Source of the DNA: Gammaproteobacteria bacterium | GTDB lineage: Bacteria; Pseudomonadota; Gammaproteobacteria; Steroidobacterales; PWYM01 | Reading direction: 5' to 3' | Length of the DNA stretch: 52,500 bases | Assembly (NCBI GenBank): GCA_007693855.1 | Contig: RECU01000096.1 | Coordinates: 1-52,500 of the forward strand | In this document: in pieces, positions 28,686 through 37,672 of the stretch | Position numbering within the stretch: the first letter of the stretch is position 1 | Layout: each line of letters begins with the position of its first letter | Position numbers and translations under genes: made by a program | Notes under the pieces: model-generated | Told to the model about the DNA's origin: nothing | Database searches by the model: none | The model's input: only the letters and a program-made list of their open reading frames with translations

Positions 28686-30236
28686 TCAGTCCGCGCTCGC
28701 GGCAGCCTGATCGATACCGACCTCGCGATCGAGGACCGCGACAGTCCGCCGATACAGCGTCTCGGCATGCGCGGGCGTATCGCTGATGCTCACCATGCCG
28801 AGCTTGCCGATCTCGCTGAGCGCGCCGATCAGGTTGAACACCACGCCTTGCTGTCGGGTCAGGTCGAAGTGCAGGCGATGCTCGACGATGAGGTCGACCA
28901 GATCCTCGGGCGTGAGCTGCCGGTAGGCGTCGCGCTGCAGGTTGTCGGTGGCGAAGTAGACGCGGCGCTGGCCGGTAGGCGTATGGAATTCACCGCGCTG
29001 GGTGTCGTAGCGGCCGTCGGTCAGGAACTGCAGCATCTGGAAAGGCAGGGTTGTGCCACCTTTGCGCAGATTGACCTCGATCGCGTAGTGCGCCCAGCCC
29101 TCGTCCTCACGCACCGTGACGAAGTCGACGCTGAAGCGCCCGAGCGCCCCATGACCGGCCAGCACTTCGCCGACCCGCTGGCCGGCGTGCTGCAGTGAAC
29201 AGCGGTAGCGTTCGTCCGCCGGAAAGGTGCTGCCGAGGAACACCTGGCCACTGTTGCCGCCAAGCAGCTGGTCATGCGTGGAGATCACCTCGAGCACGCC
29301 GGTGGGCGTGATGCGCATCTGTACCGAGGGCGAGCGCTTCTCACGGCCCTCGAGCCAGACCTCGACGATCCCGCCCATTTCGCCGAACTTGGCCAGGAAC
29401 CGCTCCGCACTCATGCCGTTGGCTTCCGGACGCAGCCGGCTCGCAAACGCACCGCGCACCCAGGCCGGTGTGACCCTGCCGCTGTCGATCTCACGGAAAT
29501 CGAACACTGCATTGCCCTCGCCGGAAAACCCCTCCTCGAGCTTGACCACCGCCCGGGAGAGCCCAGGCCGCCGGGCTTTCAGCGCCGCCAGCGCCTCGCT
29601 CAGCTCGTCTGCGCCGCGCAGTCCCTCGGCGCCATCCGGCAGGTCTACCGCGGCTTCCCGGAAAGCCTGGCGGCTGCCGCTCTTGGTGCCCAGCCAGGCC
29701 AGTGCCGGATCGCAGGCATACAGCGGGATACCGAGTTGTACCGCCAGGGTGACTTCCTCGGCGGTGGCGTTGAAACAGCTCAGGTGGGCGCTGTCGAGGT
29801 TGGGGATGGCCTCGCGGATCCGCTCCAATAAACGCGGGCGCGCCAGGATCTTGAAGCTCAGGGAGCGCGGTGTGGCGTCATAGGCCGACAGCAGCACGAG
29901 GCGGCGCCTGGCATGGCTGCTGGGCACGCCGGACAGCAGACTCAGGTAGTAGTCGATGATCGCCGGGTCGACCGGCGTACTGGTCACGAACACCAGGCGG
30001 GTGTGTGGCAGACGCAGCAGCATCAGCATGCTGAGCTGGCGCTCCTCGTAGTGCGCCGCGCCAGGAATATGGCCGAGGGTCTCCTGGTCGAGGCTCAGCC
30101 CGGGCACCACCACCACCGTGCGTTCCGCCAGTGGATTGGCGTAGGTGTCGCTGAACATCGGGGCGAGCTTCGCCTGCAGCGCCATGAAGCGCGCCCGCTC
30201 TTCCGCCGATCCTGGTGCCGGGCTGGCCTCGGTCAT
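28686..30236 (-). CDS. PGM1-related ATP-grasp peptide ligase
   Basis: A 516-residue protein with a C-terminal ATP-grasp fold. The Mg/ATP motif is IEVNLRKGGTTLPF, and an N-terminal domain contains VVVVPGLSLDQETLG and SFKILARPRLLERI. This is the pattern of proteins related to PGM1, the pheganomycin peptide ligase, which joins a peptide to a carboxylate using ATP. Substrates here are unknown. ATG 30236 is supported by AGGAGA seven bases upstream; frame openness to 30410 runs into the nitrilase-fold gene. It is 16 bases after that gene, so the two are one operon. No signal peptide. Confidence 0.83.
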   Translation of the reverse strand: MTEASPAPGSAEERARFMALQAKLAPMFSDTYANPLAERTVVVVPGLSLDQETLGHIPGAAHYEERQLSMLMLLRLPHTRLVFVTSTPVDPAIIDYYLSLLSGVPSSHARRRLVLLSAYDATPRSLSFKILARPRLLERIREAIPNLDSAHLSCFNATAEEVTLAVQLGIPLYACDPALAWLGTKSGSRQAFREAAVDLPDGAEGLRGADELSEALAALKARRPGLSRAVVKLEEGFSGEGNAVFDFREIDSGRVTPAWVRGAFASRLRPEANGMSAERFLAKFGEMGGIVEVWLEGREKRSPSVQMRITPTGVLEVISTHDQLLGGNSGQVFLGSTFPADERYRCSLQHAGQRVGEVLAGHGALGRFSVDFVTVREDEGWAHYAIEVNLRKGGTTLPFQMLQFLTDGRYDTQRGEFHTPTGQRRVYFATDNLQRDAYRQLTPEDLVDLIVEHRLHFDLTRQQGVVFNLIGALSEIGKLGMVSISDTPAHAETLYRRTVAVLDREVGIDQAAASAD

Positions 30237-30252
30237 GGCCTGTCTCCTGTGC

Positions 30253-31443
30253 TCAGCCCTCGGACATCCGCTCGCGCACCAGATCGGCCGCATCGCGATA
30301 GGTTTCCGGCAGGCGGTCCATGAACCCGTTGGGCTTGAAGGTCGGCTCGTACTGCTGGAGCACGGGCAGCAGGATCGCCGCCGGGATCTCCGGGAAGCGC
30401 CGGGTCGCACGGAAGTCCGCGATGGGGATCCGGGTGCTGGCGAAGTCCTCGTGGTGATTGGCGGTCTGTGCCAGGGTGCGGCCGGTGGGATCGACGATCA
30501 CCGAACCGTCGCCGCGTACACCGGTGGCCTCCGGGAACCCGATGTTGCCCTGGGTCACCGAATTACCCACCCCGACGGTGTAGATCCGGTTGGCACGGGC
30601 GGTGTCAATGGCCGATTGCGCGTTGGAGCCGCCGGTCACGGTCATCACCAGGAGCTCGGTGCCCTTCAGCGCCAGGCACTGGTAGAGCAGCGGTTCCAGG
30701 CCGACCGCGGTCAACGCGATGTTACCGATGTCGGTGCGGGCCACCGGCAGGACCTCGTCCCACCCGTACATCTCGACGAAGCGGTCGAGGACGTCGTAGA
30801 CCGTCGTGCCGATCAGGGCGAAGTTGCCGAACAGGCCCAGCGCGTTGCGGCCTTTCCACTGCCTGGCCACGATGCTGCCGTCGGGACCCGTGAGGATCGA
30901 CAGATTGAGGATATGCCCCGGCCAGTCGGGATCCCGGACATACGCTCCCCAGGAAATGTAGCAGTCATAGCGGCGGGCGCGCTCGCCGATGGCCTCCGAC
31001 TCCGGTCCTGGCAGTTCATAGGCCACGCGCTGGAGCTCGGTGCGGCCCCAGGGCTGCCAGCCCTGGATCGGGAACTCATGCAGGCACAGCAGATCCTGCT
31101 TGGCGCCCCACAGCCGTTCCCCGCCCCATTCCTCGGGCGTGCCCTGCGCCTGGTCGATCAGCTTGAGCACATGCTCGAGATTCTCGCGGTTGGTGCGGCG
31201 CAGGTTGTTCAGATCGACCGAGCGCACCCGCGACTGGATCGCCGTGACGTTGATCGCCTGCTGGCGCAGCTCGACGGTGTCATAGCGCCCGTTGCGGGCC
31301 ACCGAGATGCGCTCATGGGCCTCGTCGGCGCGCGCCTGACCGGTGGCCGCGGTGGCCCCCAGTACGCCAGCCATGCCGGCGGCGCCGGCGCCGGCGAGCA
31401 GGGCGCGGCGCGAGGTGTTGAGGGGGTCGTGGTCGTTGCTCAT
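30253..31443 (-). CDS. Tat-exported nitrilase-fold protein lacking the catalytic cysteine
   Basis: A 396-residue nitrilase/CN-hydrolase-fold protein with a twin-arginine signal (S11-R12-R13-ALLAGAGAAG, cleaved near ARADE). The catalytic Glu is kept (E123 in LHEFPIQGW) and a Lys lies at a suitable place (K197 in RQWKGRN). Where the nucleophilic Cys is expected, after the GxI strand, the sequence reads GNIALTAVGLEPLL, with Val247 in its place; the nearby C256 aligns with a non-catalytic position. Hydrolase activity is therefore doubtful and a binding role is possible. GGAGA precedes the ATG. It heads a two-gene operon with the ATP-grasp ligase. Confidence 0.85.
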   Translation of the reverse strand: MSNDHDPLNTSRRALLAGAGAAGMAGVLGATAATGQARADEAHERISVARNGRYDTVELRQQAINVTAIQSRVRSVDLNNLRRTNRENLEHVLKLIDQAQGTPEEWGGERLWGAKQDLLCLHEFPIQGWQPWGRTELQRVAYELPGPESEAIGERARRYDCYISWGAYVRDPDWPGHILNLSILTGPDGSIVARQWKGRNALGLFGNFALIGTTVYDVLDRFVEMYGWDEVLPVARTDIGNIALTAVGLEPLLYQCLALKGTELLVMTVTGGSNAQSAIDTARANRIYTVGVGNSVTQGNIGFPEATGVRGDGSVIVDPTGRTLAQTANHHEDFASTRIPIADFRATRRFPEIPAAILLPVLQQYEPTFKPNGFMDRLPETYRDAADLVRERMSEG

Positions 31444-36142: not shown

Positions 36143-37672
36143 CTATCCGTGGGAAGTGACCCGTGTCCCGCCGGCCCGTCTGGGGTCCGCTGCCGCCACC
36201 AGAGCGCCCTCGGCGTCGCGCAGGGTGGCCCCCACGCCGCCGAAGAACATCGACAGGGCATCGAACGCCCGGACCGGCAGGTCCAGCCTGCGGGTATCGA
36301 GTCCGGGTTCGACCGCCGCCTGCCAGCGATCGTCGCGGTATTCCAGGTGCAGTCTCGGCGCGGCAATGGCGGCGGCCAGCGGCAGCTGTCCGCCCAGGAA
36401 CCGGAGCAGCACCTGGAACAGGGCGGTGGTGATGCGGTCGGCGCCGGGCGAGCCGATGGCCAGGGCCGCGCCATCGCCGGCATGCCGCGCACAGGTCGGG
36501 GCCATATTGGACGGTACGGGGGTGCCGGGCGGGCCGAAGACCAGGCCTCGGGAGTTGAGCTCGAGTTCGCCGAGGCAGTTGTTGAGCCAGAGGCCCGTGC
36601 CCGGGGGAATCAGTCCCGAGCCATAGCCGGCCGAGAGTGTCACGGCGCAGCACAGGCCCGCGCGGTCGGTGGCCGAGACATGGATGGTGGAGGGCGAGGC
36701 GAGCGCGGCTTTGCCATGCGCCTGCACGCCAGCCAGCAGCTCGGTGAGGGCCGGGCCGGTGTCCTGCGCGCCGTGGAGACGGGTCCGCCGGAAGTCCAGG
36801 GCCCAGTGCTGAATCGCGGCCAGGCGGGCGGTGACCCCGGCATCGGCGCCGGCGGGCAGAGGCCAGCCGGCGGCCAGCAGCATGGCCGCCAGCATCACGC
36901 CGCCGACCGCCGGCGGGGGATTGGTGGCGATCTGCCAGTCGCCGACGCGCAGCGTCAGCGCGGGGCGGACGATGGCCTGGCAGTTGGCGAGATCATCGTG
37001 GGTGAGCATGCCGCCGCGGGCCTGCACATGCGCGACCATGGCCTCGGCCAGGGGCCCGCGGTAGAACGCCTCGGCGCCCTCCTCGCCGATCAGCGCAAGA
37101 CTGTCGGCCAGGCCAGGCACGACGACCGGGCTGCCCGGTGGCAGCAGTTGTCCGCTATCGTCGTGCAGGGCGGCATGGCCCTCGGGGCTGCGCGAGAACA
37201 CGGGGTGGGCCGAGTAGCCCAGGTAGTGGTGACAGGCTACCGGCAGCGGAAAGCCACGTTGCGTGACGTGGGTCACCGGCTCGAACAGCTGGCGCCAGGC
37301 GATCCGACCGTGGCGCCGCCAGGCGGTCTCGAGTGCCGCCAGTGCGCCAGGCACGCCTACGCTGCCCGCATCCACCAGGGTCGTGACGCCACCGCCATAG
37401 GCCATGTCGACGGCAACAGCCCCCCCGCCCAGGCGTTCCGGCGCAAGCCCTGCCCCCGGCATGCGGACCTGTCCATCAAGCGTCTCGGGCGGCCGGTCCG
37501 GGGGCCAGATGGTGACGTAGCCGCCGCCGGCCAGCGCGCAGACGCCGGGTTCGGTGTTGGCGGAGACCAGGGCTGCGGCGATCGCCGCGTCGACCGCGTT
37601 ACCGCCGGCCTCGGCCACCGCGGCCCCGGCGTCGGCTGCCAGCTGCGAGCTGGCCGCGATGGCGACGTTCAT
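36143..37672 (-). CDS. Gamma-glutamyltransferase family protein without signal peptide
   Basis: A 509-residue Ntn-hydrolase of the GGT family. The N-terminal AADAGAAVAEAGGNAVDAAIAAAL is typical. The autocatalytic nucleophile is probably T329 in PSTIHVSATD, equivalent to the Thr of TTHxS. GYGSGL and SNMAPT (for SSMTP) follow. The protein starts directly at the catalytic fold with no signal peptide, unlike periplasmic GGT, so it should act in the cytoplasm. Substrate could be glutathione or another gamma-glutamyl compound. It overlaps the S-formylglutathione hydrolase gene by four bases, which suggests a role in glutathione metabolism. Confidence 0.85.
   Translation of the reverse strand: MNVAIAASSQLAADAGAAVAEAGGNAVDAAIAAALVSANTEPGVCALAGGGYVTIWPPDRPPETLDGQVRMPGAGLAPERLGGGAVAVDMAYGGGVTTLVDAGSVGVPGALAALETAWRRHGRIAWRQLFEPVTHVTQRGFPLPVACHHYLGYSAHPVFSRSPEGHAALHDDSGQLLPPGSPVVVPGLADSLALIGEEGAEAFYRGPLAEAMVAHVQARGGMLTHDDLANCQAIVRPALTLRVGDWQIATNPPPAVGGVMLAAMLLAAGWPLPAGADAGVTARLAAIQHWALDFRRTRLHGAQDTGPALTELLAGVQAHGKAALASPSTIHVSATDRAGLCCAVTLSAGYGSGLIPPGTGLWLNNCLGELELNSRGLVFGPPGTPVPSNMAPTCARHAGDGAALAIGSPGADRITTALFQVLLRFLGGQLPLAAAIAAPRLHLEYRDDRWQAAVEPGLDTRRLDLPVRAFDALSMFFGGVGATLRDAEGALVAAADPRRAGGTRVTSHG

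Follow-up and report, generated by a model that had tools for sequence, protein, structure and literature searches.

Two genes lying head to tail in a 52,500-nucleotide stretch of gammaproteobacterial DNA (the window) encode a nitrilase-fold protein and an ATP-grasp ligase, and the locus raises the question of whether their products act together. It had originally been predicted that a small amide or peptide synthesised by the ligase is bound outside the cytoplasm by the nitrilase-fold protein, itself regarded as probably inactive. Our comparisons suggest instead that the two proteins are best considered separately, and that the nitrilase-fold protein is the one that deserves testing.

The locus and its genomic setting

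The source genome is an assembly of 3.28 Mb in 114 contigs, and among named organisms its closest relatives are uncultured Gammaproteobacteria represented by metagenome assemblies only. Both genes belong to a directional run on the minus strand which begins with an aldo/keto reductase, a lytic transglycosylase, an alpha/beta hydrolase and a glyoxalase-like protein, continues with the nitrilase-fold protein (gene 1) and the ATP-grasp ligase (gene 2), and is followed by two 2-oxoacid:ferredoxin oxidoreductase subunits, a ferritin-like protein and an ion channel. The two open reading frames and the short gap between them were confirmed as predicted (Table 1). Alternative in-frame starts of the ligase reach upstream to 30410, overlapping gene 1, but there is no need to invoke them, as the ATG at 30236 has an AGGAG-type site upstream of it. 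Scans for promoters and terminators found no site. The dN/dS values, 0.045-0.066 for gene 1 and 0.07-0.16 for gene 2, indicate strong purifying selection on both, and for this reason neither gene is a chance reading frame or in decay.

Table 1. Positions within the window of the two genes and of the sites discussed in the text
Feature	Position	Strand	Remarks
Gene 1, nitrilase-fold (CN_hydrolase) protein with putative Tat signal, without catalytic Cys	30253..31443	-	396 aa, ATG start
Gene 1, putative twin-arginine signal region, approximately residues 11-41 (SRRALLAGAGAAGMAGVLG...)	31321..31413	-	boundary approximate
Gene 1, Glu123 codon, general base position	31075..31077	-	invariant, 53/53
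Gene 1, Lys197 codon	30853..30855	-	invariant, 53/53
Gene 1, Glu224 codon, putative second catalytic Glu	30772..30774	-	Glu in 50/53
Gene 1, Thr245-Ala246-Val247 codons	30703..30711	-	two candidate sites of the lost Cys
Intergenic gap, including the AGGAG-type ribosome site of gene 2	30237..30252	-	16 bases
Gene 2, PGM1/BesA-type ATP-grasp ligase	28686..30236	-	516 aa, ATG start

The nitrilase-fold protein and its missing cysteine

The nitrilase fold proposed for gene 1 was borne out. The protein scores 42.5 bits for the Pfam family CN_hydrolase (PF00795), above the cut-off of 23.2, and an AlphaFold (AF2) model built from 20 homologues (mean pLDDT 73, pTM 0.79) finds its best fold match in the aliphatic amidase 2uxy (Z 27.7, rmsd 3.2, 269 residues). 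The N-terminus reads ...TSRRALLAGAGAAGMAGVLG. As to the predicted export signal, the NCBIfam Tat model TIGR01409 gives the single sequence of gene 1 a score of 12.1, below its cut-off of 16.7, but a twin Arg stands ahead of a hydrophobic stretch in all 21 aligned close orthologues (two of them read by eye). Export of the protein via Tat is probable.

The defining feature of nitrilase-fold hydrolases is a Glu-Lys-Cys triad. We aligned 53 homologues belonging to the branch of gene 1 and 26 canonical Cys enzymes from its relatives. Glu123, Lys197, Trp196, Tyr226, Gly227 and Asn241 are each present in every branch member, and the nucleophile site of gene 1 lacks a Cys, in agreement with the prediction that the Cys had been lost while Glu123 and a Lys were kept. 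Judged from these alignments, the loss is genuine and old in the branch. Glu224, which is Glu in 50 of the 53, aligns with a conserved Glu of the canonical relatives (posterior 0.85-0.95) and we regard it as the second catalytic Glu of the superfamily, a role described for Glu132 of a plant N-carbamoylputrescine amidohydrolase (PMC4812014).

The position that the Cys once occupied can be read in two ways. In all 26 canonical sequences the Cys lies ten residues past a strand Thr/Val and six ahead of a helix Pro; the same strand-to-helix stretch is two residues shorter in gene 1, where counting from the strand leads to V247 and counting from the helix to T245. The site is ambiguous because the two-residue deletion can be placed either way. 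The original choice of Val247 is favoured, weakly, by the hhalign profile-profile alignment, which sets this residue in the Cys column with a posterior of 0.54-0.59, whereas HMMER alignment to NIT4 sets T245 opposite the Cys. In the AF2 model the strand ends at 244 and a six-residue loop precedes the helix; in a model of residues 46-247 alone the last strand is unformed and pLDDT there falls below 50. The V247 column holds V in 40 homologues, T in 10, and C, S and M once each, while position 245 is Ser or Thr in 51 of the 53. The single Cys in the V247 column belongs to L087.

Two other cysteines were considered as the nucleophile and rejected. C256, named in the original prediction as a possible conserved active-site Cys, is Cys in only 21 of the 53 homologues and 11 of the 21 close orthologues. 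C161 is more widespread (48/53), but as a relocated nucleophile it would be misplaced, for in the model it precedes strand 162-170 and catalytic residues follow their strands.

It is plausible, at somewhat short of an even chance, that gene 1 encodes a true pseudoenzyme which acts in the periplasm as a sensor or ligand-binding protein and makes use of the former amidase pocket. A nucleophile site with no conserved Cys and a variable V247 column would fit such a role, as would the two-residue deletion, which adjoins the elbow, a contributor to the oxyanion hole in a canonical nitrilase-superfamily member (PMC4812014). The strong purifying selection implies that the protein is still functional. 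Nevertheless, it is not obvious why a protein that only binds should require the Glu-Lys pair retained throughout the branch, or the almost equally constant second Glu.

Alternatively, the product of gene 1 may still be an enzyme, with Thr/Ser245 or an activated water as the nucleophile, served by Glu123, Lys197 and Glu224, in periplasmic acyl hydrolysis or transfer. We hold this to be a possibility of a little over one third in weight. The prevalence of Ser/Thr at 245 argues for it, and so do the spacing of T245 from the helix Pro, which matches that of the canonical Cys, the HMMER alignment to NIT4 and the strand end and loop of the AF2 model. Three paralogues that have lost Glu123 and Lys197 also have His at 245 while V247 is retained, although they represent one lineage. 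On the other hand, the profile-profile alignment prefers V247 at the Cys column, and Cys is in general a better nucleophile than Ser/Thr.

Binding alone and Cys-free catalysis are weighted about equally here, with the remainder left to something else. The earlier description of the protein as probably inactive is not established, because Ser/Thr245 is retained together with Glu123 and Lys197; of the candidate nucleophiles at this site, T245 is the best conserved. The branch retains the Glu-Lys-Glu charge cluster and pocket residues alongside its shortened nucleophile elbow. The protein is envisaged as a Tat-exported one with an amidase-like sandwich fold and an acidic/basic pocket in which an amide-like or carboxylate ligand could still be accommodated, and most likely it would recognise a small metabolite of this kind outside the cytoplasm, either binding it or acting on it by non-Cys chemistry.

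The Cys-less branch is largely lineage-restricted. Matches to the gene 1 protein at E 1e-3, a threshold at which remote nitrilase relatives are counted too, occur in 113 of 246 genomes of the order, many of which carry several paralogues, and in a phylum-wide sample 2 of 299 genomes, including the window's own, reach E 1e-40 with the family profile. A plasmid search for the gene 1 nitrilase at E 1e-20 returned none, and a search of the literature available to us on Cys-less or Tat-exported nitrilases gave nothing on point. The signals of the branch vary, being twin-arginine, lipoprotein-like (by eye) or none. A survey of the neighbours around close gene 1 orthologues revealed no recurring partner. 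Near the Cys-less paralogues (L104-L123, L084-L089) are found TonB receptors (7/88) and DUF1838 (5/88), together with solute-binding proteins, oligopeptide transporter parts and oxidoreductases; as no more than a lead, this would suggest that external compounds are taken up and degraded. It could be proposed that the branch consists of lineage-expanded nitrilase-fold enzymes without Cys, which use the conserved Ser/Thr (T245) by the shortened elbow and are partly exported (by Tat or as lipoproteins), but we regard this as rather doubtful.

Two variants were observed among the paralogues and their relatives. L008 (in the window's own genome), L040 and L041 have twin-Arg-like starts and have lost all of Glu, Lys and Cys, which are replaced by Ala, Gln and Val; these are the sequences with His at the T245 position. 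In a neighbouring nitrilase branch (L006, L032, L043, L044 and L118), the residue aligned precisely with the Cys is Ser (ASEEILYPE), and the Lys is replaced by Arg.

The ligase and its association with gene 1

The PGM1-related identity predicted for the ligase was upheld, with PF24923 (ATP-grasp_IQCH; 85.7 bits, cut-off 27) and PF18105 (PGM1_C; 38.4 bits, cut-off 22.5) both above threshold; the PreAtp-grasp score of 22.6 is below its cut-off of 27.5. Residues 47-502 are homologous to BesA (PDB 8yi6) at E 6.7e-41. The ligase is probably catalytically active because its ATP-grasp residues K232, E292, D371, E387 and N389, which in this fold are taken to bind ATP and Mg, are invariant in 17 aligned homologues and common to BesA. 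The relatives PGM1 and BesA join an amino acid to a second amine via an acyl phosphate. In the cytoplasm, the product of gene 2 would similarly form an acyl phosphate at the expense of ATP and then an amide bond between an amino acid and a second amine. A gamma-glutamyltranspeptidase is encoded on the same strand at 36143-37672 of the window, about 6 kb upstream of this BesA-like ligase. As the compound formed by BesA is a gamma-glutamyl one, a link between the two genes is conceivable.

In another family of the order, relatives of the ligase adjoin genes for starch/glycogen synthase, a GlgB-like protein, a nucleotidyl transferase, a phosphorylase and an esterase, as well as further ATP-grasp genes. 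This glycogen-synthase/multi-ATP-grasp cluster is conserved and holds most of the ligase homologues (L091-L101, L058); a literature search found no description of it. Two markers of the cluster are not well matched by any sequence of the window's genome, and the ligase here therefore stands outside that context.

The association of the two genes was surveyed in 246 genomes of the order, a sample in which several genomes are incomplete, with an identity of at least 60% defining a close nitrilase orthologue. Such orthologues are present in 17 of the genomes and the ligase in 16, and both occur together only in G000, G001, G003 and G004, all of one genus. The genes are adjacent in the first three of these, where the order of both is kept as part of a more extended stretch of conserved genes, but G004 carries them on separate contigs among unrelated neighbours. 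Two of the three adjacent cases have the 16-base gap with its ribosome site and look operon-like, whereas in G003 the gap is 106 bases long (L009:4600-4705) and contains a 19-bp hairpin, the whole folding at -66 kcal/mol (z -5.4). The ligase was found near none of the 13 other close nitrilase orthologues, whose neighbour families are scattered, nor was the nitrilase found near any of the 12 other ligase homologues of the order. Most of these 12 are accompanied by genes for starch/glycogen synthase, GlgB and esterases and by further ATP-grasp genes. A class-wide search added two further ligase-bearing genomes, both of one genus, and the one readable neighbourhood, judged from protein starts only, contained no obvious nitrilase. 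A scan of ten neighbouring genes revealed no dedicated exporter, the ion channel not being an obvious one, and a search of the literature available to us on nitrilase and ATP-grasp clusters gave nothing on point.

With co-occurrence confined to one genus and adjacency to three genomes of the 246, homologues of both genes normally occur apart, the very pattern that the original prediction had named as speaking against a two-gene system. We consider it likely that two functionally independent genes, a Cys-less exported member of the nitrilase branch and a probably active ligase, lie beside each other in one genus, and that the pair is not a dedicated two-part system. The products of the two genes are joined by no step, the comparative evidence offers no grounds for expecting one, and we infer that they share no pathway. 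The operonic look and the gene order conserved in three species may reflect a recent genus-level link. The system first envisaged, in which the nitrilase-fold protein binds the exported product of the ligase, could draw on that order and on the 16-base gap in two species, but is very improbable given the restriction to one genus, the separation of the genes in its fourth species, the hairpin between them in one of three adjacent cases, the ties of the ligase elsewhere mostly to another gene cluster and the ten neighbouring genes, among which no dedicated exporter appears.

Significance and relation to known enzymes

The Cys-less nitrilase family is the part of this locus worth testing and merits a modest experimental look; the gene pairing is ordinary and adds little. 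A branch with Glu and Lys retained, a shortened elbow and several copies per genome would represent either a sizeable pseudoenzyme family or a new catalytic variant, and automatic annotation would probably label its members amidases.

Among known enzymes gene 1 is most readily compared with aliphatic amidase, formamidase and N-carbamoylputrescine amidohydrolase (PF00795), with which it has in common the fold across the whole domain, two of the triad residues (Glu and Lys) and a further Glu. It differs from them in the absence of the Cys nucleophile, in an elbow stretch two residues shorter and in its putative twin-arginine signal, and identity to them is only about 14-21%. Gene 2 is set apart from BesA, an L-propargylglycine--L-glutamate ligase, by a score far below that required of a BesA equivalog (NCBIfam NF042917, E 7.6e-48, 163 bits against a cut-off of 750) and by a setting in which none of the ten neighbouring genes scanned resembles the bes pathway. 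It nevertheless has the same K, E, D and E-x-N residues and the PGM1_C domain in common with BesA and the PGM1-type peptide ligases.
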